Of a stretch of DNA of 64,000 bases, positions 43,045 through 62,611 are shown piece after piece. Each line of letters opens with the position of its first letter. Position 1 is the stretch's first letter. The position numbers and the translations under genes were made by a program. The stretch comes from Lentisphaerae bacterium RIFOXYC12_FULL_60_16 (GTDB lineage: Bacteria > Verrucomicrobiota > Kiritimatiellia > UBA8416 > YA12-FULL-60-10), in assembly GCA_001803315.1 (NCBI GenBank), contig MHBQ01000065.1, positions 1-64,000 on the forward strand, given 5' to 3'. The notes under the pieces were generated by a model. That model was not told the DNA's origin and made no database searches. It saw only the letters and a list, made by a program, of their open reading frames with translations.

Positions 43045-43683
43045 TTGCATCCCTTCAATCTTGACCCGGACAGCCTGATTCATCTTCCGCAACCGGGTGA
43101 CAATCCGTTTCCCCTAACCGAATGGTTCCCGGCGTACACCGGCATTGAACTGGATATCGGTTGTGGAAAGGGACGGTTCCTGGAAGCCCGAGCCAAAGCC
43201 CATCCCGAAACCGGCCTGGTTGGTATTGACCGGATGCTTAAACGCCTGCGAAAGGTAGATCGCCGGCTACGCAGGACCGGGTGCCAAAACGTCCGGCTCA
43301 TCCGGGCTGATGCCGATTACACCGTAACCTATCTGATTCCAACCGGCACCATTTCAACCGGCTTCATATATTTCCCGGATCCATGGCCCAAACGCCGGCA
43401 TCATAGTCGGCGTCTGTTCTCCCCGGCATTCGTCGATGCCCTCTTCAGGATTCTGACGGCATCAGGCATTATCCATGTGGCAACCGATCACGAAGATTAT
43501 TTCCGCTGGATTACCGGCACCATGCACCCGGACGACCGTTTCATTGAGATCCCGCCGTACCGGCCCAACCCTGACGAACAAACGGATTTTGAACGCCAAT
43601 TCATCCAGGAGCAGCGGCCGGTATACCGGTATTCGTTTCAAAAGCGATTGATCGACGCAATCCCGCCGCCGCACACCCCATGA
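43045..43683 (+). CDS. trmB: tRNA (guanine-N7-)-methyltransferase
   Basis: IELDIGCGKGRFLEARAKAHPETGLVGID; GFIYFPDPWPKRRHHSRRLFSPAFV. TTG start. Confidence 0.92.
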   Translation: MHPFNLDPDSLIHLPQPGDNPFPLTEWFPAYTGIELDIGCGKGRFLEARAKAHPETGLVGIDRMLKRLRKVDRRLRRTGCQNVRLIRADADYTVTYLIPTGTISTGFIYFPDPWPKRRHHSRRLFSPAFVDALFRILTASGIIHVATDHEDYFRWITGTMHPDDRFIEIPPYRPNPDEQTDFERQFIQEQRPVYRYSFQKRLIDAIPPPHTP

Positions 43684-44920
43684 GCAGACCATAGAGAAGC
43701 ACGATCTCGCCATCGCCGAAGTTGTATTCGACCAGTCCGTTCAACATAAGCGCGAACAGGGCAAACAGGATAAACCGGGCGGCCCGCTGATCAGGACCAC
43801 GGGCAAACACCAGAAATCCAAGCGCATCCAGTAATGCCTTGCTCATCCAGGCAACGTAAAAGGCAAATCCGAGCCACCCCATTTCCACCCGAATCTGGAA
43901 TAAATTGGAATGCAGGTGATTCCGGTTCGGCTCCACATCCGGTCCGTATTCCCGCATGAAATCACTGGACATCGAATACCAACCGATCCCCTCCGGATAA
44001 TCCCGTGCCATGGCCGGTGCAAGCTGGGTCCACATGTACATGCGGCCGCCGCGACCCTCCTGAAATTCATCCCGCAACCCCTCCAGACGCGACCGCACCG
44101 GTGGGACAAACCAAAGGCTCAGCACCGCCAGGACCAGCAACAGGAACCCCTTGCGTCCGGCACGCCCAACCAACAGTGCCCCTGCCGCGATGATCGCACA
44201 CATCCAGGATCCGCGTTTGAAGCTCATGAGCAGGCCCGTCCCGCACAGCAGCAGGAGTGCCATGAACCATCTCCGTGAACGGACTTGGGTACAGGCACTG
44301 GTCACCCAGGCTACCGCCAATAGGATACCGACCACGAACCGCTGGGCATGTGTCATGGAACCGATTTTTATCATCCCGTCCATCCAGGTTTCAACAACCT
44401 CGGTACGCACGAGATTCCATGCCTCCAGGGGGGCCGATACCCATTGACGAAGCGTCAGAACCACCATGCCGACTGCCAGGGCCAGCAGGACATCGGTCTG
44501 GCGTCGCTCTGAATTTACCAGGGTCGCCGACAGCGGAATGATGAAGAACCAGGCCAGTTTATCCAGTTTCCGGACCCCGGTGTCCGGATCGATCCCGAGA
44601 TACGTCACCGGAATAGCCAGCAGGAAGAAGGCCGCCCACAACCAGGCGGTTAACGGGAAACGAATGCGCCGTGCTTCATCGAATGAATACTGCACAACCA
44701 GGATGGCGCTGATCATGGCAGCGATCCGGGAGGCCCCCAGTGAAAACGGCATGACACAAACCGAGACCAGAAAAATAAGCCAGGCCGCATGTTCCCGGCG
44801 CAGTGACGCGCCTGACCATGCGGAGGTCAAAACCAGCGGAAGACGCCACCTCCGACTTGCGGATAGCCGGGTGTTATCACCCGATCCCGATGCAGGATCG
44901 ACCGAAGAAAGCGTTTCCAT
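43601..44920 (-). CDS. O-antigen ligase/polymerase family (Wzy_C) membrane protein
   Basis: Multiple TM segments; MYMWTQLAPAMARDYPEGIGWYSMSSDFMREYG...NHLHSNLFQIRVEMGWLGFAFYVAWM. Confidence 0.85.
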   Translation of the reverse strand: METLSSVDPASGSGDNTRLSASRRWRLPLVLTSAWSGASLRREHAAWLIFLVSVCVMPFSLGASRIAAMISAILVVQYSFDEARRIRFPLTAWLWAAFFLLAIPVTYLGIDPDTGVRKLDKLAWFFIIPLSATLVNSERRQTDVLLALAVGMVVLTLRQWVSAPLEAWNLVRTEVVETWMDGMIKIGSMTHAQRFVVGILLAVAWVTSACTQVRSRRWFMALLLLCGTGLLMSFKRGSWMCAIIAAGALLVGRAGRKGFLLLVLAVLSLWFVPPVRSRLEGLRDEFQEGRGGRMYMWTQLAPAMARDYPEGIGWYSMSSDFMREYGPDVEPNRNHLHSNLFQIRVEMGWLGFAFYVAWMSKALLDALGFLVFARGPDQRAARFILFALFALMLNGLVEYNFGDGEIVLLYGLLMGCAAAGLRRSIAFETNTGIPAAAPG

Positions 44921-45636
44921 GTCATCCCCCATTTCCGTTTGAAACAGGCTTTGGCATCCGTACAAACCGAGGCGTCAAAACGCGATGCCGTCATACGTGA
45001 GAAATGATATACCAAACTGGTCCCGACACCAATAAAATGCCGGCACCCATGCTGGTACATCGCAAAGGCAAGGTCGGGATCGCTTCCTTCACCCGGAAAG
45101 TAGGCCTCGTCAAATCCACCCACCGCATCCCAATCCCGTTTCGCCAGCAGGAGGGGCGTCCAGGTGCTGACCACATTATAGGGCCGTCGGAGACGGGGAA
45201 GGTCGTTGAGCAGGTCAGCTTCCCGGAAATGCGACGGGTCACAACCATAATCCTGCCCGCCGATATAACCGGGGTGGGCACGGCCTGCCTCGATCGCGGT
45301 GCCGGACAACCAGAGGGGATCAGCCATCCCCAGGTATTGCATCAAGGCCGTATCCCATCCGGGTAACGCCACCATGTCGTCGTTGAAAAAACACACATGG
45401 TCGCAGCCGGCCTGCTTAACGCCGCGGTTGACCGCCCCGCATACCCCGAGATTGTGTTCGAAATACAGGGTCTGGACACCCGTCCCCCCACCCCATTGAC
45501 GACACGCATCATCGGCTTCATTGAAACACACGATGATCTCATGTTCGACCGCACTATGCCGACGCAGACTCCGAACGGCCAAATCCAAGCAGGAAAGGTT
45601 TTTCCACGTTGGAATGACGATCGAAAAACGCGGCAT
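44827..45636 (-). CDS. Glycosyltransferase family 2
   Basis: FSIVIPTWKNLSCLDLAVRSLRRH, CFFNDDMVALPGWD, GGFDEAYFPGEGSDPDLAFAMYQHG. Confidence 0.9.
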   Translation of the reverse strand: MPRFSIVIPTWKNLSCLDLAVRSLRRHSAVEHEIIVCFNEADDACRQWGGGTGVQTLYFEHNLGVCGAVNRGVKQAGCDHVCFFNDDMVALPGWDTALMQYLGMADPLWLSGTAIEAGRAHPGYIGGQDYGCDPSHFREADLLNDLPRLRRPYNVVSTWTPLLLAKRDWDAVGGFDEAYFPGEGSDPDLAFAMYQHGCRHFIGVGTSLVYHFSRMTASRFDASVCTDAKACFKRKWGMTWKRFLRSILHRDRVITPGYPQVGGGVFRWF

Positions 45637-45637
45637 C

Positions 45638-46858
45638 CTACCTCCGACCGGTTCCCGGATTGCGTCGAGCCTCCTGCTTCACCGCTTGGAAGGCCCCGGT
45701 ATCCGTTGATAAACGGACCGCCGCCAAGGCCATACCGATACCGGCTTTCATGGCCTGCTGGTAGGCATAATCCGTGTTGGCAAGTTTCATGAAATCGCGG
45801 GTATGCAAAGCGGCCACGGTATGGCCGGCCGGTACAATGCCGAAAAAGGGATGCGACGCAGGCACGATCTGACTGACATTCCCCATATCCAGTGAACCGC
45901 GGGTCTCATTACCCTTCGCCGTTTCAAAGACAATTCCGGCCATGTTATAGGCTTCGGTCATGACGGTTTCCAAGGCAGCATTAATCCGAAACGAACGATA
46001 TCCCGGTTTGACCGGACGAATGGATACGCCGGCGCCCAGCGCGAGTCCAGCCCCCCGGGCTGCACGCCTGACCTGCCGGCACAAGGCGTCAAGCCGGGCC
46101 TCACTGGAGCTGCGCACCACCACCTCGACAACCGCTTGTTCCGGTATGACGTTCACCGCTTTGCCACCGTCGCGTACCACGGCGTGTAGACGCGCATCTT
46201 CATGCAGATGCTGACGCCAGGCATTGAGGGCGTTGATAAATAAAACCGCTGCATCCAAGGCATTGATGCCGTCCCAGGGACAAACCGCCGCATGGGCGGC
46301 CTTTCCACGAAATTGGACCACCAGGGTCTCAAGCGCATTGGCGCCCGCAATGGGACGGTTAAAGGTCGATGGATGCGTCATCCAGCAAGCGTCCAGATGG
46401 TCAAACGCATGCCGGTCCGCCATGATCCCCTTGCCGGCAAACAACTCTTCAGCCGGGGTCCCGATGATTTCAAAGCGGCCCCGCCAGTGCGCCCGGGTTC
46501 CCGCCATACCGACAGCAGCAGACAAGGCCGCCACCGTGATCAGGTTATGCCCACAGGCGTGCCCCAACCCGTCAAGGGCATCATATTCGGCCAGGACGCC
46601 CAGACAGGGACCCCGCGGGGTTCGACCGGTCAATGTCGCACGGAAGGACGTTTTCAACCCGACCCAGGGATGTTCAACCCGGTATCCCTGTTCGCGTAAA
46701 AAAGCAACCACCCGCTGTACCGCACGGTGTTCCTGGAATCCAATCTCCGGTTCAGCATGCAAGGCACGGCCGATAGCCCGGAGGGCGGAAGCCTGCCGTC
46801 GCACACAATCCTTGATGCCGGTGCCGGCTTTACCGTATGGCTGCTTTTTCGCGGGCAT
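45638..46858 (-). CDS. M20-family amidohydrolase (AbgB-like)
   Basis: ALHAEPEIGFQEHRAV, LAEYDALDGLGHACGHNLI, GTPAEE, RGKAAHAAVCPWDGINALDAAV, RGSLDMGNVSQIVPA. Confidence 0.9.
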   Translation of the reverse strand: MPAKKQPYGKAGTGIKDCVRRQASALRAIGRALHAEPEIGFQEHRAVQRVVAFLREQGYRVEHPWVGLKTSFRATLTGRTPRGPCLGVLAEYDALDGLGHACGHNLITVAALSAAVGMAGTRAHWRGRFEIIGTPAEELFAGKGIMADRHAFDHLDACWMTHPSTFNRPIAGANALETLVVQFRGKAAHAAVCPWDGINALDAAVLFINALNAWRQHLHEDARLHAVVRDGGKAVNVIPEQAVVEVVVRSSSEARLDALCRQVRRAARGAGLALGAGVSIRPVKPGYRSFRINAALETVMTEAYNMAGIVFETAKGNETRGSLDMGNVSQIVPASHPFFGIVPAGHTVAALHTRDFMKLANTDYAYQQAMKAGIGMALAAVRLSTDTGAFQAVKQEARRNPGTGRR

Positions 46859-46859
46859 G

Positions 46860-47936
46860 TCAGCCTTTCCATTCCCAGGCCGATTCATCGTCCTTGACCG
46901 GGAGGGAGACCGCCCGCCGCTTGGCGGCGGACTGGTACATGGCCAGCACAATTTCCAACGTCGGCCGCACGGCGGTTACCGGAATAACCACTTCCCGATC
47001 TTCCCGAACGGCGTCGATCATGTCCTGAATGACCACCTGATGATCCAGGAACCCGAAATCGGTTGCACCACCGGCGGCGGTTGCCTGGGATGCACTGCCC
47101 AGCTGCCGGATGGCATCATCGCCCGGCTGTTCATCACGGAACTTCCAAGTATGGATCTTTTCACCGGTTACAATGGCGGTCCCGTTGGTTCCGTTGATTT
47201 CAATGCGCAGATCGGTTCCCGGCCACAGGGCCGTGGAGGCTTCCACCACACCCTGGGCGCCATTGGCAAACTCGACAAATGCCAGTACCGTATCCTCGAT
47301 TTGGATGCCCGGATGTGCCAGGTTGTTCATCCGCGCCTGAACCCGCCGGGCCGGCCCAATGAGGTACTGCAACAGATCAATGTAGTGAAAGGCATGCTGA
47401 ACGGTCACACCAGCGCCGCTTTTCCGTGACATCCGCCAGGCATCCGATTGGTAATACTCAATGGAACGGAACCATTTCATGTAGGCATCCGCATGCAACA
47501 CCGTGCCAAACCGGCCGCTGTCAATGGCCTGCTTGATGGCCTGAATGGACTTTCTCACCCGACACTGCACCGTGCAACCGAACTTGACCCTGGCCTTCTT
47601 GCAGGCGGTAATCATCTCGTCCGTATCATGAAGACTCATGGCCGGTGGTTTCTCCGTCAACACATGCCGCTTGGCGGCCGCCGCCTGAACCACGGCATCC
47701 CGGTGCAAATGATTGGGCAGACAAATATTCACGACCTGGATGGCCGGATCCGCCAGCATTTCCTTGAACGTGTAATAGGCCTTGACCTTGTATTCGGCCG
47801 CCATCTTGTCGGCCCGTTCCTTGGCCATGTCACATATGGCCAGCAATTTTCCCCCTTTTGATGCCTGGATGGCCTTGGCATGAAAAGGCGACACCAAACC
47901 CGCCCCCAGAATTCCAAACCCGATGGATGTAGCCAT
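46860..47936 (-). CDS. Gfo/Idh/MocA-family oxidoreductase
   Basis: IGFGILGAGLVSPFHAKAIQAS; NICLPNHLHRDAVVQAAAAKRHVLTEKPPAMS; QHAFHYIDLLQYLIG. Confidence 0.92.
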   Translation of the reverse strand: MATSIGFGILGAGLVSPFHAKAIQASKGGKLLAICDMAKERADKMAAEYKVKAYYTFKEMLADPAIQVVNICLPNHLHRDAVVQAAAAKRHVLTEKPPAMSLHDTDEMITACKKARVKFGCTVQCRVRKSIQAIKQAIDSGRFGTVLHADAYMKWFRSIEYYQSDAWRMSRKSGAGVTVQHAFHYIDLLQYLIGPARRVQARMNNLAHPGIQIEDTVLAFVEFANGAQGVVEASTALWPGTDLRIEINGTNGTAIVTGEKIHTWKFRDEQPGDDAIRQLGSASQATAAGGATDFGFLDHQVVIQDMIDAVREDREVVIPVTAVRPTLEIVLAMYQSAAKRRAVSLPVKDDESAWEWKG

Positions 47937-47967
47937 GACGAATCCCCCTATTCCCTTGCCTCCGGCT

Positions 47968-49005
47968 TCAGGCCGGAATCAGCAGGGCTTTTAACGCTTC
48001 CAACCGCTCAATCGCATCAAAGACCGATTCCCACTGTGCCAGTGGTGCACGATGGCTTATAACCTCCTGGGCTGGTACCGCACCGCTGTGAATCAGGTGA
48101 ATGGTCCGATCCCAGGATGTGTAACTGGTGGACATGCAGAACTGGACATCCACCACCTTGAATGCAAATTTGTCCCAGGGAAGTTCCACGGGCCGGTTGC
48201 CGGTCAGGCCGATCGCACAAATCCTGCCACGTTTCCGCACCAGATCAACCGTTGAAGGTATGGCCTTCGGGGCTCCGCTGCATTCCGCCACGACATCCGC
48301 ACCCAGCCCGCCGGTCAGTTCCATGACGGCTTCCACAGCGTTGCGTTGGCCGATGTTGATAACCTGGCGGAATCCCAAATCACGGGCTTTCTTGAGCCGC
48401 AACGCCTCGTCACCAGGAGTTCCAAGAATCACCACTTCGCGGGCGCCTGCCGCCCGTGCCACCATGGCGGTCAACAAACCGATGGGCCCGGGCCCCTGAA
48501 CCACGACCAGGTCCCCGGGAATCACCCCGGTCCGTTCAATCAGGTCCGTCACGGCATTCGCAGTAGGTTCCACAACGGCAGCCTGATCCCAGGTCATATC
48601 GGCGGGAATGGTATGCAGCAAGCGTTCAGGATAGCAGATGTATTCCGCCATACCGCCATCAATCCCCCATCCCGGAGATCGTTTGTCCGGACAAATCTGG
48701 ATGTTCCCGGTACGGCAAAGCGGACATACCCCGCAGGCACGGGTGTGCGGTTCTGCCACCACCCGATCCCCCTCCTTGATCCGTTTGCAGTCTGCCCCCC
48801 GCTCAATGACCGTTCCCGTAAACTCATGACCCAGAATGACGGGCGGCCAGTAGGGAAAGCTGTCATGCCGCACATGGATATCCGAACCACAGATACCGCA
48901 GGCGGCAATCTTTATCTTCACTTCACCGGGACCGGGAACCGGCTCCTTGACATCCCGAACCTCGATGAAACCGACACCTTTTTGTGTTTTTACGAGTGCT
49001 TTCAT
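47968..49005 (-). CDS. Zinc-dependent MDR-family (threonine/sorbitol dehydrogenase-like) dehydrogenase
   Basis: CGICGSDIHVRHDSFPYWPPVILGHEFTGTV; four-Cys structural zinc CGVCPLCRTGNIQICPD; VVVQGPGPIGLLTAMVARAAGA. Confidence 0.93.
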   Translation of the reverse strand: MKALVKTQKGVGFIEVRDVKEPVPGPGEVKIKIAACGICGSDIHVRHDSFPYWPPVILGHEFTGTVIERGADCKRIKEGDRVVAEPHTRACGVCPLCRTGNIQICPDKRSPGWGIDGGMAEYICYPERLLHTIPADMTWDQAAVVEPTANAVTDLIERTGVIPGDLVVVQGPGPIGLLTAMVARAAGAREVVILGTPGDEALRLKKARDLGFRQVINIGQRNAVEAVMELTGGLGADVVAECSGAPKAIPSTVDLVRKRGRICAIGLTGNRPVELPWDKFAFKVVDVQFCMSTSYTSWDRTIHLIHSGAVPAQEVISHRAPLAQWESVFDAIERLEALKALLIPA

Positions 49006-50246
49006 TCTGTTACCCCCGAATAACCGGTCAGGAAATCCACCAATACACAAGCCGCGGCGGCCACATCGTTGAGATCAATCTGTTCCTGGCGCGAATGCGC
49101 CACTTTCAAGGAACCCGGTCCATACACCAATGAAGGGATTCTCAACTGGTTGTTGTAGAACCAGGCATCACAGGATGCCGTCATGCCGGCAATCTCGGTG
49201 GGAGCACCCAGTTTGCGCGATGATTGAAGCAGGGCCTGCGGCACCTCGTGCGAGGGTTCAAGCACGCTGCTGTCATGCCGGTACAGGAAGGTAAGTTCCA
49301 CGTTGTGCATGGCATCCGCGCCCAACCCGGCAGCCAGGGCCGCGGACATTTCCGCCTGAACCTGCTGATGTGTCTTGTTGGGCAGGAGTCCCAACACCCC
49401 CATCAGCACCGCCTTGCTTGGCGCCGATGCCGGCCAGTTGCCGGCCTGCAAACTACCGAAGGTGATCGGCATCGGGTTCGGATAACCGTCAAAAAGAGGA
49501 AATCCCCGTGAAGCGGCCAGCAGCTCTGCATGATAACGTTCCAGAACCGCCATGGCATCCCGTGCCAGCAATAACGCGCTTCTCGTCTGGCCGGCCTGGC
49601 CGCTATGCCCCGCTTTGCCGGTACAGACCAGGCGAAACCAGACGGCACCACGGATCGATGTCAGTATTCGCTGTTCCGTGGGTTCCAGCACGATGCAGGC
49701 ATCGGCCTTTTCCCCGCGCCGCGCCATGGCAAGCGTACCATTGCCGCCATTCTCCTCCTCCACAACGATATGGGCCACAAGATCCCCCTTGAGGCGGATA
49801 CCCAACTGTTGCAAGGCACGGAATACCAGCCAGATCGTGGCGGCCTGGCCCTTGGCATCACAAGCGCCACGGCCATGCACCACGGTTCCCTCGATTCGGG
49901 GATTCCACGGTTCAGCCATATCCTCCGAAGGCGGGACCACGTCCAGATGCGTATTAAACAATACCGTAGGCCCCCCACCCGTCCCCTTGCTCACGGCCCG
50001 CACATTAAACCGACCCTTGTAACGGATATCCGGGATCGGCGTGCTGTAATCCGGGTCGTTGCGCAGGGCGTCATCGAGCGGTATGCGCGTCGCACGCGAT
50101 GCACATCGCTTGAATCCACCCAATGCCAAACGCATGGCGTCCCGTTCACAACCCGGTGTCGACGGGCACCGGATCAGATCGCACAGGAAATCCCGTGCTT
50201 CCGGCAGAACGGCGGCAATGCCCTCGCGAATGCGGTCCGGTGTCAT
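49002..50246 (-). CDS. M20-family peptidase/deacylase (ArgE/DapE-like)
   Basis: VLFNTHLDVVP, VHGRGACDAKGQAATIWLVFRAL, VVEEENGGNGTLAM, GKAGHSGQAG. ATGA overlaps on both sides. Confidence 0.9.
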   Translation of the reverse strand: MTPDRIREGIAAVLPEARDFLCDLIRCPSTPGCERDAMRLALGGFKRCASRATRIPLDDALRNDPDYSTPIPDIRYKGRFNVRAVSKGTGGGPTVLFNTHLDVVPPSEDMAEPWNPRIEGTVVHGRGACDAKGQAATIWLVFRALQQLGIRLKGDLVAHIVVEEENGGNGTLAMARRGEKADACIVLEPTEQRILTSIRGAVWFRLVCTGKAGHSGQAGQTRSALLLARDAMAVLERYHAELLAASRGFPLFDGYPNPMPITFGSLQAGNWPASAPSKAVLMGVLGLLPNKTHQQVQAEMSAALAAGLGADAMHNVELTFLYRHDSSVLEPSHEVPQALLQSSRKLGAPTEIAGMTASCDAWFYNNQLRIPSLVYGPGSLKVAHSRQEQIDLNDVAAAACVLVDFLTGYSGVTE

Positions 50247-51565
50247 AACGAAAGGTCCTTCAGGACAGACTCCATGATCTGGAGGCTTTCATCCGCCTGT
50301 TCCTGGGTAATCACCAGCGGCGGTGCGACCCGGATGACATTGCCATAGACCCCCACCGAACCGACAATCAAACCGCGGTTGGCACACCCGTCAATCACGG
50401 GACGGATCAACTCGGGAGCCGGCTTTTTGGTCTTTTTGTCCGCAACGAATTCCAGCCCCATGACAAGCCCCATGCCGCGCACACAGCCAAGGTACGGGCA
50501 TTTGGACGCCATGGACTGGAGCCGTTCCATCATGAATCGGCCGATCCGGGCAGAATTTTCAACCAACCGTTCCCGCTCATAGATCTCGAGAATCGCGATG
50601 ACCGCCGCACTGGCTACCGGGTTGCCACCGAGGGTGCTGGACAACTCCCCTTTCTTCAAGCAGGCGAACACGGAATCACGCGCCGCCACAGCCGATACGG
50701 GAACGCCGCAACCAATGGCCTTGCCGATGGTCATGATGTCGACATCCAGCTGCTCGTGCTCCTGGGCCCACATCTTACCCGTTCGGCCATAGGACGCCTG
50801 CACTTCATCAAGCGTTATCAGCATGCCCCGCGCGTGCGCCCATTCCACCAACCGGGTCAACCACCCTTCCGGCGGGAAGATGAACCCGGCGGCTCCCTGG
50901 TAGGGTTCCACCAGCACGCCTGCCAGGCTGCCTACCGAATTGGACTGGATAACGGTATCGAGATAGTCGAAATAACGGCGGAACGACGGTCCATCCTGGC
51001 AGAATCCCAGGGTGTCACGGTACGGATTCGGGAATGCTGCCCGGATAATTCCAGGAACCCCGGGACCATAGCCACGTTTGGGACCCGCCATGCCACCCAT
51101 CGAGGCAGCGCCAAAGGTCCGACCATGGAATCCGCCTTCGAAAGTCAGGATTTCAAAACATCCCGTCTTCCGTCGCATCAGGCGCATGGCGGCTTCCGTC
51201 GTTTCACTGCCCGTCGACAGGAAAAAGCAACGGTTAAGATGCTTGGGCAGCACCTTGACCAGCTTTTCAGCAGCCAGGATCCGCTGAACATTGGCGCATT
51301 CGTAATTGTTAAGCAGTTGTCCGGACGCTTCCTGAACCGCCTTGACGAGGTGGGGGTGACAATGCCCCACATTGGTAACCAGCACCCCGGACGTCCAGTC
51401 AATGAACTGGTTGCCGTCAACATCGTTCACCACGCATCCATGGGCGGACTCCCACACGATCGGCGCCTGATATCCCACAACATCCGCTTCAAACTGATGC
51501 CAGCGTTCCAGCAAGGCCTTGCTTTTGGGACCCGGCAACGAACCATTCACACGTGTGATTTTCAT
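50243..51565 (-). CDS. Class III PLP-dependent aminotransferase
   Basis: GNQFIDWTSGVLVTNVGHCHPHLVKAVQ, FFLSTGSETTEAAMRL, FEGGFHGRTFGA, LITLDEVQASYGRTGKMWAQEH, TIGKAIGCGVPVSAV. Confidence 0.93.
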   Translation of the reverse strand: MKITRVNGSLPGPKSKALLERWHQFEADVVGYQAPIVWESAHGCVVNDVDGNQFIDWTSGVLVTNVGHCHPHLVKAVQEASGQLLNNYECANVQRILAAEKLVKVLPKHLNRCFFLSTGSETTEAAMRLMRRKTGCFEILTFEGGFHGRTFGAASMGGMAGPKRGYGPGVPGIIRAAFPNPYRDTLGFCQDGPSFRRYFDYLDTVIQSNSVGSLAGVLVEPYQGAAGFIFPPEGWLTRLVEWAHARGMLITLDEVQASYGRTGKMWAQEHEQLDVDIMTIGKAIGCGVPVSAVAARDSVFACLKKGELSSTLGGNPVASAAVIAILEIYERERLVENSARIGRFMMERLQSMASKCPYLGCVRGMGLVMGLEFVADKKTKKPAPELIRPVIDGCANRGLIVGSVGVYGNVIRVAPPLVITQEQADESLQIMESVLKDLSL

Positions 51566-51602
51566 AAAACCGCAGCTCGCTTTCCCACCCCGGATCGGGA
51601 TG

Positions 51603-52589
51603 TTACTTCCTGAGGGTTTCCTTGTTGATCACGCACCGGGCATTGCCGCCCTTGGACCATGATACGATATCGTCGAGTATACTCTTCCGGATTTCCCACC
51701 CGGCCTCTTCCGATGCCCACCCGATATGCGGGGTCAGGATGATGTTGTCCAACCCGAACAGCGGATGCGTCGGGGGCGGTGGTTCAACGGTAAAAACATC
51801 GATTGCCGCACCGGCAATCCGCCGTTCACGCAGCACCTGACCGAGCGCCACCTCGTCCACCATGCCGCCCCGGGCAGTATTGACCAGATAGGCGGTTGGT
51901 TTCATCAGGGACAGGGTGCGGGCATTGACAATCTGCTTCGTTTCATCGTTCAACGGTGTGTGAACGGTCAGGAAATCCGATTCCTTGAACAGCGTATCCG
52001 TATCCACCCACTGTATCCCCTCCATCTCCGCCTTCCGCTTATCACTCAGATAAGGATCGGAACCGAGAATACGGAATCCAAAACTCTTCAGCTTTCTGAA
52101 GACCCGGCTCCCGATCCGCCCCAACCCCAGGATTCCAAGGGTCTTTCCGTCCAACCGGTAAATGGGAAACAGTTTCGAAAAATCCCATTGGCCGGTGGCG
52201 CTGGCCTGGTCGAGGGTTGCGCGGCTCCAGACTACCTTGCGTCCGCAGGCAAAGATCAAGGCCACGGCATGCTCCGCCACATCTTCCTTGCAGTAGTCCG
52301 GCTGATAGGCGAACTGGATGCCATGCCGGGTGCAGGCAGCGACGTCCACGTTGTCATACCCGATGCCATGGCGGATCAGCAGGCGGCAATCCTTCAACAA
52401 GGCCAATTGCGCGTCATGCATCTTGACCATATTGACCACCACCACCTCGGCGCCGGCACACTGGGAAGCAACCTCTGCTTCCGGCTTGAACTTCAACTGG
52501 AAGGCACCAAACCCGATACCCGCCTTGCGCAATTCGCCGGCTTCCCAATCCAGATTGTCCTCGATATAATCGGTCACTACCGCTTTCAT
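51603..52589 (-). CDS. D-2-hydroxyacid dehydrogenase (CtBP-like)
   Basis: GKTLGILGLGRIGSRVFRKLKSFGFRILGSDPYLS, YLVNTARGGMVDEVALGQVL, LTPHIGWASEEA. Confidence 0.92.
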   Translation of the reverse strand: MKAVVTDYIEDNLDWEAGELRKAGIGFGAFQLKFKPEAEVASQCAGAEVVVVNMVKMHDAQLALLKDCRLLIRHGIGYDNVDVAACTRHGIQFAYQPDYCKEDVAEHAVALIFACGRKVVWSRATLDQASATGQWDFSKLFPIYRLDGKTLGILGLGRIGSRVFRKLKSFGFRILGSDPYLSDKRKAEMEGIQWVDTDTLFKESDFLTVHTPLNDETKQIVNARTLSLMKPTAYLVNTARGGMVDEVALGQVLRERRIAGAAIDVFTVEPPPPTHPLFGLDNIILTPHIGWASEEAGWEIRKSILDDIVSWSKGGNARCVINKETLRK

Positions 52590-53659
52590 CGCTTGATCTC
52601 CACCCAGCGTCGTGCGCTGTCCGACTGGTAAACGGCCTCAACCACCCGTAACGCTTCCACCCCATCCTGGCCGCTGATCGGTGGTTCCTTGCCGGTCCGC
52701 ACAGACCGTACAAACGCCCGGAGATACTCCAACCCCATGAATCCGGAATAACCGGGGGTCGGCTGAAGCTCAAACTCCTGGCTGCGCCGCGGTGAACCGG
52801 CAAAGGCGGCATCGTCGCTGCACACATGCAGCACATCCTTCTGTCCCTCGTAGGCCGGTGACCAGGAGATCACCCCACGGGTCCCCCGGAACGCCACATA
52901 CAGGTCACGCCCGCAAGGGAACGCATCCGGCACGGTGTAACTGATATCCAACGCCACAATGGCTCCCTTTTTGAAACGCAAATGGGCAAAGGAATTATCC
53001 TCGACGTCGTATTCCTGGTTGATTTTGACATTACGCCCGGAAACCTCAACCACTTCATCCTGCAGGATCATCCGGCAGAGATCGATCCAGTGGACCCCCA
53101 GATTATACATGGGGCCACCGCCGGATTTTGCCTTTTCCAAAATCCAGGGGGACTTTCCGTCCAAATAACGGGTCAGTCGACCGGCAGCACAACGACCTTC
53201 ACCACCCACAACCTCTCCGATCATCCCGGAACTGATCAGACGCTTGATTTCCTGGGCCACGGGATGCAACCGCCAGCAATATCCGGTGGTCAATTGAACC
53301 TTGTTTCGACGGGCAGCAGTCACGATGCGTTCCGCCCCGCGGCGCGTGGATGCCATGGGTTTTTCCACCATCAAATGGGCGCCTGCCGCCGCACAAAGTT
53401 CGGCCGCGTCGGGACAATCCACATGCGGCAGAAACAAGGCTGCAATATCCGGCTGTTCAGCTTTCAGGAGTCGATCCAACCGGTCGTATCCGCGGATCCC
53501 GAAGTCCTGGCAGAAAGGTTCACGAAGCGTGCCATCCTCTTCAAAGACGGACGTGACCCTGACGTCCGGAACCGCCTTGAACAGGGTCATGTAGGAACGG
53601 GGGTGCAAATGCCCCAACCCGATCACGGCAACCTTCAATGGTGCAACCTCGCGTTTCAT
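52586..53659 (-). CDS. Gfo/Idh/MocA-family oxidoreductase
   Basis: VAVIGLGHLHPRSYMTLFKAVP; GAHLMVEKPMASTRRGAERIV; GGGPMYNLGVHWIDLCRMILQ. Confidence 0.92.
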   Translation of the reverse strand: MKREVAPLKVAVIGLGHLHPRSYMTLFKAVPDVRVTSVFEEDGTLREPFCQDFGIRGYDRLDRLLKAEQPDIAALFLPHVDCPDAAELCAAAGAHLMVEKPMASTRRGAERIVTAARRNKVQLTTGYCWRLHPVAQEIKRLISSGMIGEVVGGEGRCAAGRLTRYLDGKSPWILEKAKSGGGPMYNLGVHWIDLCRMILQDEVVEVSGRNVKINQEYDVEDNSFAHLRFKKGAIVALDISYTVPDAFPCGRDLYVAFRGTRGVISWSPAYEGQKDVLHVCSDDAAFAGSPRRSQEFELQPTPGYSGFMGLEYLRAFVRSVRTGKEPPISGQDGVEALRVVEAVYQSDSARRWVEIKR

Positions 53660-53701
53660 CCGGTTTAGTCCTGCCTTTCTGTTACCAACATCATTCCCAA
53701 A

Positions 53702-54901
53702 TCAGATACGCGGGACGTCGACTTCCTGCCCGCGCCGTTCCGACGATACATAGGCGGCATACGTGGCCAGCGTGGTGTCCATGGCCAATTCCCATCCGGA
53801 TTGAGGAGCGGTTCCATCCGCCGCACAGGTCATGAAATCCTGGAGCTCCGCCTGATACCCGATCGTGAAATTCTCGTCCGGCGCTGCCTGTGTCCAACCT
53901 TCCTTCGTGCTGGCCTTCTCGATCAGGTAAATATCGCGGTACTGGTCGTCGCGGGGATTATAGGTATCCATGAGACCGGCCGGACTCAAGTGACACCGGC
54001 TGCGATGATTGTTTGCGAACACCTCGACGTAATCGTATATCCCGCCCAGCACCACTTCCGAGGTGACGATATCGCCCACCATCCCGTCTTCAAACACCAC
54101 ATGGATCATCCCGTAATCTTCAATATCCAGGTAATCGGTCCGAATCATCTTCACATCACGATACGCCGGCTGACGGGTCAGTTCATGAACCCGGGCACTC
54201 ACGGCAATCGGACGGATCGGGCGGCCATCACGTGCAAGCCCCTCCACCCGCTTCAAGTACAGTAACGCACCCAGGGGATGAACCCCCTTGCCGATCAGGG
54301 AACCGCCTCCGGCATATTTCCATATCCCATAAACCGGAGAAGCCGATCCATTGTGAGACTCCTCGCCCATCATCCGCAGGATCTGGGCGCCGGTCTTCTC
54401 GATGATCTCACGCTCCTTCTGGATCCCGGGGGCATAGACGAAATTTTCGGCATATCCGAAACAGACTCCGGCCTTTTTGACCCGTTCATTCAACTGGACA
54501 AGCTGTTCCGTAACCGCATCCAGCATGGGTTGTTTGGATGCCCGATTCCCCCGGAAAGCGTCGTCACCCGGGGGGCCGAAATAACCGGTCAAAGGTTTTT
54601 CGCAAATCAAACCCTTGCCGGCCTCAATCGCCATACGAATACCGGGTTCATGGGCACACGGCGGGGAACAGATATCCAACACATCCACGTGATCAAGCAT
54701 GGCGGTGACATCACGAAAGACCGGTATGCCATGCGCCCGGCCGAAAGTCTCACGACTTTCCGCCCGCAGCGACGTGATGGCCGTGATTTCAACCTGCACG
54801 CCGTAGACCCGGCGCAGGCAGGCAACATGGAATTGCCCGGCAAACCCAGCGCCGATTATCCCCACGCGGATTTTTTTCATCGGATTCGCCGGCATCCTCA
54901 A
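53702..54901 (-). CDS. Gfo/Idh/MocA-family oxidoreductase
   Basis: RVGIIGAGFAGQFHVACLRRV; VLDICSPPCAHEPGIRMAIEAGKGLICEKPLTG; GGGSLIGKGVHPLGALLYLKRVEG. Confidence 0.92.
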   Translation of the reverse strand: MRMPANPMKKIRVGIIGAGFAGQFHVACLRRVYGVQVEITAITSLRAESRETFGRAHGIPVFRDVTAMLDHVDVLDICSPPCAHEPGIRMAIEAGKGLICEKPLTGYFGPPGDDAFRGNRASKQPMLDAVTEQLVQLNERVKKAGVCFGYAENFVYAPGIQKEREIIEKTGAQILRMMGEESHNGSASPVYGIWKYAGGGSLIGKGVHPLGALLYLKRVEGLARDGRPIRPIAVSARVHELTRQPAYRDVKMIRTDYLDIEDYGMIHVVFEDGMVGDIVTSEVVLGGIYDYVEVFANNHRSRCHLSPAGLMDTYNPRDDQYRDIYLIEKASTKEGWTQAAPDENFTIGYQAELQDFMTCAADGTAPQSGWELAMDTTLATYAAYVSSERRGQEVDVPRI

Positions 54902-55929
54902 TATTTGCCGTTCTGTGTTTCAAAATGCGTGGTTTTGCCAAGACTTTCCCCACCCTTGCTCACCCAGTGCGCGATCCATTCAATCACGGTGCCGAGGGGT
55001 ACGGAGGGATTGCCGAACAACTGGTTCGCTTTACGCGCATTGTTCAGGTATCCACGCCCATTTTCTTCACCGGTAAAGGTAGCGGGCTTGCCCATCAACC
55101 GGCCAAACTCCATGGCCGCTTCCCGAATCGAAAAGGTTTCGGGGCCGGTGACGTTGAGAATGGTCGCCGGTGAACTGGCCAGTTCCAGCGCCTGCAACAC
55201 CTGTGAACAGGCATCACCCTGCCAGATCACATTGGCAAAACCCGTCGTCACATCCACCGGTTGCCCCTTCCAGACCCGTTCCGCCACATCGAACAAGACA
55301 CCGTACCGCAACTCCACGGCATAATTGAGGCGGATATGGACCACGCGTTCCCCTTTTTGTTCGGAGAAATAATCAAACATTCGCTCCCGACCGAGACAGG
55401 ATTGCGCATATTCGCCAATCGGGTCGGGGGGCAGGGTTTCAGTTGCACCACACGTCTTCATATCCAGGACGGGATAGACACACCCGGTGGAGAAAGCGGC
55501 GATCCGCGAACGGGTAAATACACGGGCCACATTGTGCGGCACCATCACGTTGATCGCCCAGGTCAGCGATTCACTCCCGGTGGAACCGAACTTGCGTCCC
55601 ACCATGTAGACGATATTTTCGATCGCCGGCAGTTTGGCCACGGCATCAGGATCCATCAAGTCACAGGTCATGGTCTCAACCCCTTGATTGGCAAGGGATT
55701 CAAGCGCTTTCGGCATGACATCGACCGCCACCACCCGCTTCTTGAGACCGGCGGCCTGCAACGCCCGTCGCGCCAGCAGGGTCATGGTAGGGCCAACCTT
55801 GCCGCCGGCGCCCAGAATCATGATATCCCCGGACAAGCGCTTCATGGCGGCCACCAGCGAATCGCCGGGTGTCGTCAGGATGTCGTCCAACTGTTTAACG
55901 GTTTCAATGTGCTTCGGCAGATTATGCAT
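54898..55929 (-). CDS. NAD(P)-dependent epimerase/SDR-like protein
   Basis: DIMILGAGGKVGPTMTLLARRALQAAG; IAAFSTGCVYPV; FDYFSEQKGERVVHIRLNYAVELRYGVL. Confidence 0.87.
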   Translation of the reverse strand: MHNLPKHIETVKQLDDILTTPGDSLVAAMKRLSGDIMILGAGGKVGPTMTLLARRALQAAGLKKRVVAVDVMPKALESLANQGVETMTCDLMDPDAVAKLPAIENIVYMVGRKFGSTGSESLTWAINVMVPHNVARVFTRSRIAAFSTGCVYPVLDMKTCGATETLPPDPIGEYAQSCLGRERMFDYFSEQKGERVVHIRLNYAVELRYGVLFDVAERVWKGQPVDVTTGFANVIWQGDACSQVLQALELASSPATILNVTGPETFSIREAAMEFGRLMGKPATFTGEENGRGYLNNARKANQLFGNPSVPLGTVIEWIAHWVSKGGESLGKTTHFETQNGKY

Positions 55930-55986
55930 GATGAGTTCTCCTGGATGAATTCCCCGGTTCCCCGCAACCGGACAAAATACGCGTAG

Positions 55987-56017
55987 ACTATAGCATTGCG
56001 CCGGCTGGCATAGTCAA
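55987..56017 (-). promoter_or_regulatory. Candidate promoter/operator of the nine-gene metabolic cluster
   Basis: Minus strand TTGACT-19 nt-TATAGT (extended TGC before the -10), overlapped by GACTAT(55986-55991)/ATAGTC(56010-56015) inverted repeat. Confidence 0.35.
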
Positions 56018-56023
56018 GACGCA

Positions 56024-56578
56024 TCAGGCCTGTTTGACAAAATGCTTCAACCAGGCCATCAGCCCCTGTTCACCGGCGGCATCGTAACGTCGGTTATCCA
56101 CACAGGATTCCTTGGCAATGGCCACCAGCGGGGTATATCCCGACTTACCCTCATGTACGCTGGTCTTGCGGAATAATCCGCCCTTCTCTCCGGTCGTGGA
56201 CGACAAGACCACGATTGGAATGCCCGATTTCCGGCCGGCCGCTTCATACTCTTTTTTGAGGGCATCAATCACGGCCCAGCCATCCATGACCGGCATGTTG
56301 AGATCCAGAACGATCAGCAGCGGATCGTGCACATGCTTGGCACGGATCAACACCAGTTGCTCCAGGGCCTCACGTCCGTTTGACGCCTGGTATATCGCCA
56401 GTTTCGGATCCGACAGGCGGACATCCCGTGCCACCTTCATGCGGATGGACTTCTCATCATCCACCAGGAGAACCGAATTACTGTTGGGATCCATGCTGTG
56501 CCGTATGGAATCCAGAAAGTCATGATACGAGGTTTGACCCAGATCCTGTTCATCCAATACCAGTCGTTGTGCCGTCAT
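56024..56578 (-). CDS. Single-domain response regulator
   Basis: NSVLLVDDEKSIRMKVARDV...LLIVLDLNMPVMDGWAVIDALKKEYE...IPIVVLSSTT. Confidence 0.88.
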   Translation of the reverse strand: MTAQRLVLDEQDLGQTSYHDFLDSIRHSMDPNSNSVLLVDDEKSIRMKVARDVRLSDPKLAIYQASNGREALEQLVLIRAKHVHDPLLIVLDLNMPVMDGWAVIDALKKEYEAAGRKSGIPIVVLSSTTGEKGGLFRKTSVHEGKSGYTPLVAIAKESCVDNRRYDAAGEQGLMAWLKHFVKQA

Positions 56579-57834
56579 GTTGTTTCCTCCTGTTGCAACT
56601 CGATCCGGAAGGTCGTTCCCGTGGGCCCGGTCTCGCACCGGATCGTTCCGCCATGAACATCCACGATTTTCTTGGCAATCGTCAAACCAAGACCGGTTCC
56701 GCCTTCTTTTTTTGTCTTGAATGGAATAAACAGGTTGTCGGCGATCTCGGACGGCATGCCCGGTCCGTTATCGGACACCGTAAGGACCAATCCGCCCGTG
56801 TCGGACGGCGCCGCTGTCAGGCGAACGGCGGGGACCGCCCCTCCGCCATGCTGACGCAATACTTCCACGGCATTCTTGCACAGATTGAACAGCGCCATCT
56901 TCATTTGTTCAACATCCATCCGAAAATCCGTAATGCCGGAATCCACCGATTCCCCGACCCCGATCGCCTCCGCGCCCATGTCACGGACCAGGGCGCGAGT
57001 CGAGACCACCACTTCATGCACCAGGGCAGCCACTTCCCGCATCTCGAACCGTGGTTCATACACCTTGGTCAATTGCAGGTATTTCTTGGCAAGTTCAGCG
57101 CCTTCCCGGACCGCCGTCTCGGCCAGCGAGAAATCCTCGCGGGTTGTCGCGTTGGCCCAGGTGGGCACCGAGGCCGTAAGATCATCGGCCAGACAATTCA
57201 ACCAGGACAACCCGCCGATCAGCTTGTTCTTCAGTTCATGGATGACCTGATACGAGGTCTGTCTCAATTTCATGACTTCCAACCCGAACGCAATCAACGG
57301 AAGCGTACCGAACACCGGTCGGAACGTTTCGGCAAACACGGTGTCCTGCTGAAATTCCGCGGGTTCAAATTCCCGGCGGGCCACCCCGTCGCACTGCCCG
57401 TCCAGCACATCCCGATCAAACAGGAGTTGTACCGCCCCCATGTTCCGACGCGCATGATCGGCATTGCCGCGGGCATGAACCGACGGAATGGGGATGCTCA
57501 GGAGGTAACGGGTCTGCCGCTGAATCTGACGGTCAACCCCGTCATAATGCCGTTTGTCGCCCGGCGCAAACGTGTAGATGACCCGATCCCGGTTGACCGT
57601 GTCGCCGGCGATGCTGTTCAGCGGAACCCGCATACCGATCAAGGACGGCTGATCGGCAAACAGGAACTGGAGATAGGGTCCCTCCTCGCCCAGGATCGAC
57701 CCTCCCGTGGCCCCCGCCAGACGGATGCACGTGTCCAACGCACACTTCAGCAATTCATCCGGTGTGCTGCTGAAACTCAACCGGACCAAATCCTGCAAGT
57801 GCGTTTCCATGGCAATCAATTTAGCCTGAAACAA
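56575..57834 (-). CDS. Sensor histidine kinase with N-terminal GAF-like domain
   Basis: H-box QVIHELKNKLIGGLSWLN; TVSDNGPGMPSEIADNLFIPFKTKKEGGTGLGLTIAKKIVDVHGG. 4-nt overlap with the RR. Confidence 0.9.
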   Translation of the reverse strand: MFQAKLIAMETHLQDLVRLSFSSTPDELLKCALDTCIRLAGATGGSILGEEGPYLQFLFADQPSLIGMRVPLNSIAGDTVNRDRVIYTFAPGDKRHYDGVDRQIQRQTRYLLSIPIPSVHARGNADHARRNMGAVQLLFDRDVLDGQCDGVARREFEPAEFQQDTVFAETFRPVFGTLPLIAFGLEVMKLRQTSYQVIHELKNKLIGGLSWLNCLADDLTASVPTWANATTREDFSLAETAVREGAELAKKYLQLTKVYEPRFEMREVAALVHEVVVSTRALVRDMGAEAIGVGESVDSGITDFRMDVEQMKMALFNLCKNAVEVLRQHGGGAVPAVRLTAAPSDTGGLVLTVSDNGPGMPSEIADNLFIPFKTKKEGGTGLGLTIAKKIVDVHGGTIRCETGPTGTTFRIELQQEETT

Positions 57835-57867: not shown

Positions 57868-58980
57868 TCAGCGGCTGAAGCAACGAACACATTCCTGCAT
57901 GGCGGATTCCTGATGTTCGATGGATTCCACCAGTTTGAACTGGGTCCGGCATCGGTCCAGATTGTGCCCCGGTCGATGCACTTTGAAGTATACGTCCCCG
58001 GCCAGGTAATCGGTGAGGAAGCGGATGCCGATTTCCAGGGTGATCAGCTTACCGCTGAAAGGAAGCAAATCACGTTCTGCCGGGGTCAGGAAGGCCCCGG
58101 CCGATTCCAGGTATCCCTGCACCAGCGCCTCGAAGAGGTCGAGCTTTAGGCACACTTTGGAGAGATCCCGTTCATCCTCGGCGCTGGGACTGGTGGAGGT
58201 CCGCACCATGTCACCGAAGTCATACAAGGCCAGACCGGGCATGACGGTATCCAGATCGATCACACAAATCCCCTGGTGCGTGGTGCTGTCCAGCATGACA
58301 TTGTTGATTTTCGTATCATTGTGCGTCACCCGCTCCGGAATCAAGCCCTGCTCCAAGTGGTCGATCAACACACGCGTCACGGGCTCGTGCCCCAGCACAA
58401 AGTCGATTTCCGCGCGGGCGGTTGCCGCCCGATTGGCAACATCCTGTTCCAGGACACGTTGAAACGCCTGAAAACGTTTTGGCGTATGGTGAAAATCCGG
58501 GATGGTTTCATGCAAACGTCCTCCGGGCAAATCCGTCAACAGGGATTGAAATTCACCGAAGGCACGCGCGGCCTCATACGCAATTCGCGGGCTCTCGACA
58601 AAATCGACCGAGCGTGTTTGTTCAATGAAATGGTAGGTCCGCCAGGTATTCCCTTCGGCATCCACAAAATGGGTCTTCCCGTCACGTGTGGGAACCAGCG
58701 ACAAGGCCCGCCGCGCAGAATCCGGAACACCGGCCGCCGCCATACGCCGGTGCTGGTGTTCGGTTACCCGGGAAATATTCTCCATGACCTGGCCCGGTTG
58801 TCGGAACACCGTGTGGTTGATCCGCTGATGGATGAAACGATGCGGGGTGCCGTCCTGGTCGAAACTAGCCAGGAAGGTATCGTTGATATGCCCGTTCCCG
58901 TAGGGTTCCACACCCAGAAAACGGCCAGGGGTCTGGAATTGACCTGCAATGGCCGCTACATCATACCCCGCCTTTACCAT
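57868..58980 (-). CDS. APH-fold phosphotransferase, N-acetylhexosamine 1-kinase (NahK)-like
   Basis: GVEPYGNGHINDTFL, FIHQRINHTVF, VTHNDTKINNVML, CVIDLDTVMPGLALYDFGDMVRT. Confidence 0.85.
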   Translation of the reverse strand: MVKAGYDVAAIAGQFQTPGRFLGVEPYGNGHINDTFLASFDQDGTPHRFIHQRINHTVFRQPGQVMENISRVTEHQHRRMAAAGVPDSARRALSLVPTRDGKTHFVDAEGNTWRTYHFIEQTRSVDFVESPRIAYEAARAFGEFQSLLTDLPGGRLHETIPDFHHTPKRFQAFQRVLEQDVANRAATARAEIDFVLGHEPVTRVLIDHLEQGLIPERVTHNDTKINNVMLDSTTHQGICVIDLDTVMPGLALYDFGDMVRTSTSPSAEDERDLSKVCLKLDLFEALVQGYLESAGAFLTPAERDLLPFSGKLITLEIGIRFLTDYLAGDVYFKVHRPGHNLDRCRTQFKLVESIEHQESAMQECVRCFSR

Positions 58981-59116: not shown

Positions 59117-60217
59117 ATGAGCATTTTAACTATCAAGCCGCTTGCATCCTGCAAATATTCCGTTCTTTCCCTGGGCGAGATCATGCTGCGTCTTGACCCC
59201 GGGGAAGGTCGCATCCGTACAACCCGATCATTCACTGCGTGGGAAGGCGGCGGCGAATACAATGTCGCACGCGCCATCCGCAAGTGTTTCCGCATGCCGG
59301 CTGCCGTGGTCACCGCCTTTGCCGACAACGATGTCGGTCGTCTGCTTGAGGATTGCATCCTGCAGGGAGGCGTCGACACGTCCCTGATCCGCTGGATCCC
59401 CTATGATGGCGTCGGCCGGACCGTCCGCAATGGCTTGAACTTCACGGAACGGGGTTTCGGCCTTCGCGGCGCCGTGGGGATATCCGACCGGGGATTCACC
59501 GCTGCCTCCCAGTTGAAACGCGGCGATATCGACTGGAACCATATATTCGGCACCCTGGGTGTCCAATGGCTCCATACCGGCGGCATTTTCGCCGGCCTCT
59601 CGGAAACCACCCCGGGAGTCGTCGAGGAAGCCATGGAAGCCGCCCACCGGCACGGCACCATCATTTCCTATGATCTCAATTACCGATCCTCCCTCTGGAA
59701 AACCATCGGCGGCCAGAAAAAAGCCCAGGAAGTCAACCGGTCACTGGCCCGATATGTGGATGTCATGATCGGCAACGAGGAGGACTTCACCGCCGCCCTC
59801 GGTTTCAAGGTGGATGGTGTGGATGAACACCTCGCGTCGCTGGATGTAAACAATTTCCGGAAAATGATCGAACAGGCAGTCAAAACCTATCCCAACTTCA
59901 AGGTGGTTGCCACGACCCTGCGCACGGTAAAAACCGCCACCGTGAATGATTGGGGCGCCATCTGCTACGCCGGCAACCAGTTTTATGAAGCCATGCTGCG
60001 CAAGGATCTGGAAATACTTGACCGGGTGGGTGGCGGCGACAGTTTTGCATCCGGCCTGATCTATGGATTCATCACCACGGGTGATCCAGCCGTAGCCGTC
60101 AATTGCGGCGCCGCCCACGGGGCGCTTGCCATGACCACACCGGGCGACACCTCCATGGCATCGCTGGACGAGGTTGAGAAACTCATGAAGGGCGGCAGCG
60201 CCCGCGTGGTCCGCTGA
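59117..60217 (+). CDS. PfkB-family sugar kinase (2-keto-3-deoxygluconate kinase-like)
   Basis: VLSLGEIMLRLDPG, GGGEYNVARAIRKC, SYDLNYRSSLW, IGNEEDF, LDRVGGGDSFASGLIYGF. Confidence 0.88.
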   Translation: MSILTIKPLASCKYSVLSLGEIMLRLDPGEGRIRTTRSFTAWEGGGEYNVARAIRKCFRMPAAVVTAFADNDVGRLLEDCILQGGVDTSLIRWIPYDGVGRTVRNGLNFTERGFGLRGAVGISDRGFTAASQLKRGDIDWNHIFGTLGVQWLHTGGIFAGLSETTPGVVEEAMEAAHRHGTIISYDLNYRSSLWKTIGGQKKAQEVNRSLARYVDVMIGNEEDFTAALGFKVDGVDEHLASLDVNNFRKMIEQAVKTYPNFKVVATTLRTVKTATVNDWGAICYAGNQFYEAMLRKDLEILDRVGGGDSFASGLIYGFITTGDPAVAVNCGAAHGALAMTTPGDTSMASLDEVEKLMKGGSARVVR

Positions 60218-61798: not shown

Positions 61799-62611
61799 TC
61801 AATAAAACAGGCGGGTTACGATATACCCGGTGATTAAAATCAACAGAAACGAAACAATCACCGACCGGCGGGTGGACAATCCAACCCCGACGGCGCCACG
61901 GGTGGTGGCGAATCCCTCGTGCGAGGCAACCACGGTAATAAGAATACCAAAAATAACGGCCTTCAATACGCCGACAAACAGATCCTTCACTTCAGCAAAG
62001 CGGGTGGCATTATCCAGATAGGCCTCCCAGGAGACACCCAATTGCGTCATCCCCACCAAACCTCCACCGAGCAACCCCAGCACACAGGTGTAAAACGACA
62101 GCAACGGCGTCATGATGGTCATCGCAATCAGGCGTGGCATCACCAGGAAGCGTACCGGATCGATGGACATGATCTCCAACGCATCAATTTCCTCGGAAAT
62201 GGTCATGGTCCCCAACTGGGCGGTGATGGCCGATCCCACGCAGGCAGCCAGGATCAACCCGGTCATAAACGGCCCCATCTCGCGCAACATGGACACCATA
62301 ACCGCGGTGCCGATATTCACCTCCTGGTTGAACCGGCGCAACTCGATCCCGGTCTGCAGGGCCAGGATCATACCGGTGAACAGGGCCACAATGGTGATGA
62401 CACCCAGGCTCTTGATGCCCGAAATATACATCTGCCCCAGGATCTCGCGGCGGCTCCGGCTCGTCAACGCATGGCGAAACGATCGCACCGCGGCAATCAA
62501 CAACAAGGTGGCAATTCCGGTCTGCTGGCAGGCATGCATTGCCAGGCGACCCACCCGTCCCACCCAGTTATTGGGCGGCGGATAATATTCAACCTCCTTG
62601 ATCACCGTCAC
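61799..62611 (-). CDS. MlaE/YrbE-family permease
   Basis: FTGMILALQTGIELRRFN, MLREMGPFMTGLILAACVGSAITAQLGTMTISEEIDALEIMSIDPVRFLVMPRLIA. Confidence 0.94.
   Translation of the reverse strand: MTVIKEVEYYPPPNNWVGRVGRLAMHACQQTGIATLLLIAAVRSFRHALTSRSRREILGQMYISGIKSLGVITIVALFTGMILALQTGIELRRFNQEVNIGTAVMVSMLREMGPFMTGLILAACVGSAITAQLGTMTISEEIDALEIMSIDPVRFLVMPRLIAMTIMTPLLSFYTCVLGLLGGGLVGMTQLGVSWEAYLDNATRFAEVKDLFVGVLKAVIFGILITVVASHEGFATTRGAVGVGLSTRRSVIVSFLLILITGYIVTRLFY

Follow-up and report, generated by a model that had tools for sequence, protein, structure and literature searches.

An eight-gene oxidoreductase, aminotransferase and deacylase block in a Kiritimatiellia genome and its possible role in amino-sugar catabolism

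Gene content of the locus

The window analyzed here is a stretch of 64,000 nucleotides from Lentisphaerae bacterium RIFOXYC12_FULL_60_16, a member of the class Kiritimatiellia (assembly GCA_001803315.1, contig MHBQ01000065.1, positions 1 to 64,000). Its minus strand carries nine intact open reading frames (ORFs) between 45638 and 55929. An earlier note, written from the letters of the sequence, described them as nine coupled genes with several ATGA-type overlaps. The ORF list, Pfam/NCBIfam assignments and gene junctions bear out that description, together with the order and families it gave: SDR, GfoA, GfoB, DHDH, AT3, M20a, MDR, GfoC and M20b (Table 1). Overlaps of 4 bp occur at four junctions (SDR/GfoA, GfoB/DHDH, AT3/M20a, and M20a/MDR), and 1-bp spacing separates GfoC from M20b and M20b from the following glycosyltransferase gene (GT2). 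The remaining three gaps within the nine-gene run measure 31-42 bp. For MDR and M20b, the starts in the ORF list lie too far upstream, and ATG codons at 49005 and 46858, respectively, are better choices. Metal (zinc), pyridoxal phosphate (PLP), and catalytic motifs of the block enzymes are intact and conserved among the genomes that carry the block. The block region showed neither a structured RNA nor an enrichment of promoter- or terminator-like sites.

Table 1. Positions in the window of the block genes and their neighbors
Feature	Description	Position	Strand	Basis
SDR	extended SDR / NAD-dependent epimerase family; first gene of the conserved block	54898..55929	-	Pfam PF01370
GfoA	Gfo/Idh/MocA dehydrogenase	53702..54901	-	PF01408; position conserved in carriers
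GfoB	Gfo/Idh/MocA dehydrogenase	52586..53659	-	PF01408/PF02894
DHDH	D-2-hydroxyacid dehydrogenase (phosphoglycerate dehydrogenase / glyoxylate reductase-like)	51603..52589	-	PF02826/PF00389
AT3	class III PLP aminotransferase	50243..51565	-	PF00202
M20a	ArgE/DapE-type M20 deacylase	49002..50246	-	PF01546
MDR	Zn-dependent medium-chain dehydrogenase (threonine dehydrogenase / scyllo-inosose dehydrogenase-like)	47968..49005	-	PF08240/PF00107
GfoC	Gfo/Idh/MocA dehydrogenase; closes the conserved block	46860..47936	-	Pfam; closest solved chains 3q2k/3q2i
M20b	HipO/AbgB-type M20 amidohydrolase; lineage-specific, outside the conserved block	45638..46858	-	TIGR01891 above cutoff
GT2	glycosyltransferase, 1 bp past M20b; not conserved with the block	44827..45636	-	PF00535
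Ligase	O-antigen ligase / Wzy_C protein; not conserved with the block	43601..44965	-	PF04932
Two-component genes	histidine kinase (56575-57834) and receiver protein (56024-56638), just upstream; not conserved with the block	56024..57834	-	
APH-fold kinase	upstream, same direction; not conserved with the block	57868..58980	-	PF01636
PfkB	PfkB kinase, divergent upstream; proposed downstream step	59117..60217	+	closest solved chain 2afb (2-keto-3-deoxygluconate kinase)

Conservation of the block across one phylum

When 84,980 genomes were scanned for GfoA, ten loci emerged, and two of these contain the full block from SDR to GfoC. Further carriers came from searches within the phylum of the window, and the distribution beyond it was covered by GfoA patterns and plasmid searches. 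Thirteen carriers are now recognized, several of them incomplete draft genomes. Seven belong to the class of the window (the window genome G000, G410, G165, G049, G412, G007, and G190), and six lie elsewhere in the phylum (G070, G274, G215, G182, G386, and G392). The order GfoA-GfoB-DHDH-AT3-M20a-MDR-GfoC is complete on one contig in 9 of the 13. In G007 and G182, the visible genes match it up to the contig ends, so that 11 carriers keep the order as far as it can be seen. SDR heads the block in G000, G410, G165, G049, G392, and G386, with a TetR gene between SDR and GfoA in G392, lies nearby in G412, and sits elsewhere in the genome in G070, G274, G215, and G182.

Genes flanking this core in the window behave differently. 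The other clusters have no M20b orthologue alongside, and the best match (40% identity) is unlinked. No labeled homologue of GT2 and no homologue of the APH-fold kinase was found at the carrier loci, and GT2, the ligase, and M20b are not common to the carriers. The conserved unit is thus eight genes, SDR, GfoA, GfoB, DHDH, AT3, M20a, MDR, and GfoC. The nine-gene boundary drawn by the earlier note is not upheld, because M20b is a lineage-specific addition. Plasmid searches with AT3 yielded no homologue above 37% identity among the matches listed, and those with SDR returned mostly members of an SDR family paired with a DapA-like aldolase.

Co-occurrence was assessed across 388 sampled genomes of the phylum, ten of which contain AT3, and in a 32-genome panel made up of these ten carriers and 22 others. 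M20a and GfoB occur in exactly the same ten genomes of the panel. MDR is present in nine of them, G190 being the only carrier tested that lacks a candidate. GfoC, searched in 13 genomes, was found in all ten carriers and in none of the three others. SDR also occurs in 10/10 carriers compared with 96/388 genomes overall, for which independence would give a chance of 6e-7, a figure that overstates significance because the sampled genomes are not independent of one another. Among the seven core genes, distance matrices correlate at 0.66-0.97; SDR versus DHDH is an exception (0.15). Such correlations also reflect species descent and hence argue against free recombination rather than for function. 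The proposal that these genes work together would have been undermined by free recombination without shared co-occurrence. Co-occurrence and, for the most part, order are instead retained, which supports the view that the block genes form one functional unit.

Enzyme families and links to the 2-keto-3-deoxygluconate branch

In SDR, an invariant Cys (C178) occupies the position of the expected catalytic Lys of the YxxxK motif (YAQSC) in 19/19 aligned sequences from several phyla, and the same alignment reveals a strongly conserved GKPTHFE motif at the C-terminus of the family. The SDR structure model, built from a three-sequence alignment, reached a mean predicted local distance difference test (pLDDT) score of 51, and that of GfoA a mean of 67. 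The match of GfoC to 3q2k spans the whole protein (E 1.9e-42). We take 3q2k and 3q2i to be WlbA, 3-dehydrogenases of surface-sugar biosynthesis acting in the UDP-ManNAc3NAcA pathway. In several bacteria (loci L028, L036, L037, and L011), GfoA homologues outside the cluster have a UroD/MtaA-like protein close by. Near another homologue, in G006 (L034:7849-10703), lie a different PfkB, an SDR resembling a mannonate oxidoreductase, and a weak match to KDPG aldolase (KDPG, 2-keto-3-deoxy-6-phosphogluconate).

DHDH is closest to 1wwk, McyI, and glyoxylate reductase among solved chains, and AT3 to alanine/serine racemase, γ-aminobutyrate (GABA) transaminase, and isoleucine 2-epimerase. The nearest solved chains of M20a and MDR are 3pfo and 4ej6, respectively. 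These affinities would accommodate the metabolism of (N-acyl-)amino acids, in which M20a frees the amino acid, AT3 transaminates or racemizes it, and DHDH reduces the keto acid, while the sugar-type dehydrogenases act elsewhere. Consistent with this, M20a falls near ArgE/DapE and MDR near threonine dehydrogenase, and DHDH, AT3, and M20a remain adjacent even in G190, where the block is dispersed. Such a scheme, however, leaves no place for three Gfo/Idh enzymes and SDR, nor for a 2-keto-3-deoxygluconate (KDG) kinase and KDPG aldolase, and we regard it as distinctly improbable.

The linkage to these last two activities is clearest in G412 (L144). There, the operon GfoA-GfoB-DHDH-AT3-M20a-MDR-GfoC continues into an FAH-family hydrolase gene (FAH), PfkB, and a KDPG/KHG aldolase gene (Eda), with a TetR gene beside GfoA and SDR beyond the aldolase. 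The PfkB of G412 is 75% identical to that of the window, and its Eda scores above the TIGR01182 cutoff. TetR genes also accompany the cluster in G392 and G386. The earlier note had remarked that the cluster contains no kinase or aldolase. This holds inside the window block, near which only the kinase of the lower Entner-Doudoroff pair is found, but fails as a property of the pathway, since both genes are part of the G412 operon. The window PfkB, whose closest solved relative is the KDG kinase 2afb, lies 3.2 kb from SDR, and PfkB is divergent beside GfoA in G070, G274, and G182.

FAH is linked to the cluster in G392, G386, and G412 and unlinked in G070, G274, and G215. In G386, it comes after GfoC and is 67% identical to the G392 protein. 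Close orthologues (E <= 1e-95) occur in 5/388 genomes, all of them carriers; the chance of 3.5e-9 calculated for this likewise overstates significance, given the non-independence of the genomes. The best-matching family, 2,4-didehydro-3-deoxy-L-rhamnonate hydrolase, scores 216 bits, below the equivalog cutoff of 500. The protein has an HxxE motif, which resembles the catalytic residues (His and Glu) reported for hydrolases of this kind (PMC6336799). A sodium/solute symporter gene directly adjoins FAH in G070 and G274 (L128:6425-8095 and L129:6523-8127), and its product may serve the pathway as an importer. In other settings (Proteobacteria, Firmicutes, Actinobacteria, and the phylum of the window), members of the SDR family are often paired with a DapA-like aldolase, and TetR or sugar transporter genes lie near some of them. 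As a separate observation, this widespread pair (L098-L100, L102-L103, and several of L069-L080) resembles a distinct, uncharacterized sugar-acid pathway.

In G070 and G274, the gene for the exo-N-acetylmuramidase NamZ adjoins PfkB and the cluster (L093:4527-5735 and L094). This arrangement raises the option of N-acetylmuramic acid catabolism, in which C1 oxidation, D-lactyl loss, deacylation, and deamination would lead to KDG. DHDH, whose family includes D-lactate dehydrogenases, would handle the D-lactate. Yet NamZ adjoins the cluster in one genus only, apart from a 34% match about 6 kb beyond GfoC at the G049 locus. An etherase was not found, and the scheme gives AT3 and MDR no clear task. 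The peptidoglycan link is kept as a weak rival owing to this narrow distribution of NamZ, and we judge it very unlikely.

The position of FAH, PfkB, and Eda, the TetR genes, and the contexts of the SDR family favor catabolism to KDG or a KDG-like acid. We therefore consider it probable, with considerable reservation, that the block is a catabolic operon ending at such a product. The presence of five sugar-type dehydrogenases points to a sugar or sugar acid as substrate, and the combination of an ArgE/DapE-group M20 deacylase with a class III aminotransferase suggests that it carries nitrogen, probably acylated. An N-acylated amino sugar or amino-sugar acid is the most likely class, with its amino-sugar part, deduced from family membership, an even call.

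Several observations weigh against this reading. PfkB-family genes occur in 30/32 panel genomes, so their presence is not specific; it was rejected as evidence, and only the position of the gene counts. The window genome holds only a 56% homologue of FAH, at an unrelated place and of a type common in the class. No cluster contains a transporter or a sugar-acid dehydratase among the cluster proteins scanned and the G412 operon. Other points also bear on the suggestion, made in the earlier note, of a role in surface-sugar biosynthesis. Under that scheme, the Gfo/Idh enzymes and SDR would oxidize, AT3 would aminate, M20a would trim an acyl group, and the neighboring glycosyltransferase, ligase, or exporter would use the product. 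The nearest relative of GfoC is a presumed surface-sugar dehydrogenase. In G190 and G215, the block is dispersed among housekeeping genes without a visible regulator, while most of its genes are retained. Three carriers of the window's class have differing surface-glycan genes directly downstream in the same direction: GT2 and the O-antigen ligase after M20b in the window, GT2 and an FkbM methyltransferase in G049, and a Wzm/Wzt exporter in G165.

The biosynthetic suggestion is weakened because the GT2 and ligase genes on which it was built are not conserved, although the different surface-glycan genes in the two other carriers lend it something. Such surface-glycan genes are missing from other carriers, among them G412, where the corresponding position is taken by FAH, KDG kinase, and KDPG aldolase. 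The block has no DegT aminotransferase, acetyltransferase, or nucleotidyltransferase, and FAH co-occurrence and the TetR genes fit catabolism. A surface-sugar role consequently appears unlikely. Farther along the window, outside this neighborhood, a 439-amino-acid ORF (62608-63927) with repeated FPL/WPL-type motifs and without a Pfam match lies upstream of MlaE/MlaF/MlaD-like genes.

Proposed route and comparison with known systems

If the block is catabolic, SDR and the Gfo/Idh enzymes would oxidize or epimerize an imported sugar or sugar acid, M20a would strip the N-acyl group, and AT3 would transfer the amino group to a 2-oxoacid. DHDH could reduce the resulting 2-ketoaldonate or, alternatively, oxidize D-glycerate released by FAH-type cleavage. 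The carbon skeleton would thereby become KDG or a close relative by a largely non-phosphorylative route. KDG kinase and KDPG aldolase of the lower Entner-Doudoroff pathway may then phosphorylate and cleave this product, respectively. In another branch, MDR would oxidize C4 and FAH would hydrolyze the product to pyruvate and a hydroxyacid ("Route III"). Only tentatively do we propose the complete version, namely a phosphate-free N-acylated amino-sugar route in which the Gfo/Idh enzymes and the Lys-less SDR remodel the substrate, M20 and AT3 remove nitrogen, and KDG is split by both the kinase/aldolase and MDR/FAH branches. The more general idea of stepwise oxidation, deacylation, and transamination of an unusual sugar, as formulated in the earlier note, remains the best reading.

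A described functional parallel is the oxidative chitin (GlcNAc1A) pathway OngB-OngC-KdgK of Pseudoalteromonas, which deacetylates and deaminates an amino-sugar acid to KDG before KDG kinase acts (PMC9537276, PMC12017989). The same non-phosphorylative logic is proposed for this block. OngB and OngC, however, are of the D-aminoacylase and D-amino-acid-deaminase types, whereas M20 and class III aminotransferase enzymes are found here, alongside five additional dehydrogenases as well as DHDH. The clusters showed no OngA or RidA gene. The kinase lies upstream of the block in the window and inside the operon in G412. In Route III of L-rhamnose, L-fucose, and pentose degradation, a dehydrogenase acts together with an FAH-family hydrolase, which breaks a 2,4-diketo-3-deoxy acid down into pyruvate plus a hydroxyacid (PMC6336799). 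Relatives of the cluster carry FAH, and MDR is a candidate 4-dehydrogenase by family resemblance. Route III differs in its acid-sugar dehydratase, which has no counterpart among the proteins scanned, and in lacking the aminotransferase and M20 deacylase; KDG kinase and KDPG aldolase moreover accompany the cluster in G412.

A pathway of Luteolibacter LG18 (Verrucomicrobiota) oxidizes and epimerizes L-glucose and L-galactose to KDG, on which KDG kinase and then KDPG aldolase act; the kinase gene there lies apart from the main cluster (PMC12632266). Compared by description only, it resembles the proposed route in its oxidize-epimerize logic, its KDG branch, and the separate kinase, but it has no nitrogen-removing enzymes. 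The WbpB/WbpE/WbpD/WbpI pathway to UDP-ManNAc3NAcA (PMC10622841) shares oxidation followed by transamination, and GfoC would be a candidate for its 3-dehydrogenase through the similarity to 3q2k/3q2i. Its aminotransferase is of the DegT type rather than class III, and the block contains no acetyltransferase, 2-epimerase, or UDP-sugar 6-dehydrogenase. The three-gene azasugar cluster (PMC8382821) likewise combines an aminotransferase and a Zn dehydrogenase. Its third member is a phosphatase, absent from the cluster proteins examined here, which instead include M20a and Gfo/Idh enzymes. The literature searched contained no account of this cluster or an equivalent, and the pathway seems not to have been described before.

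The eight genes of the block thus occur as a set in several families of a single phylum, largely in constant order, and alongside enzymes of the KDG branch, which points to a real pathway. If its substrate were known, functions could be assigned in one stroke to the three Gfo/Idh subfamilies, the class III aminotransferase, and the M20 deacylase. Such knowledge would also reveal a food source of these little-cultured bacteria.

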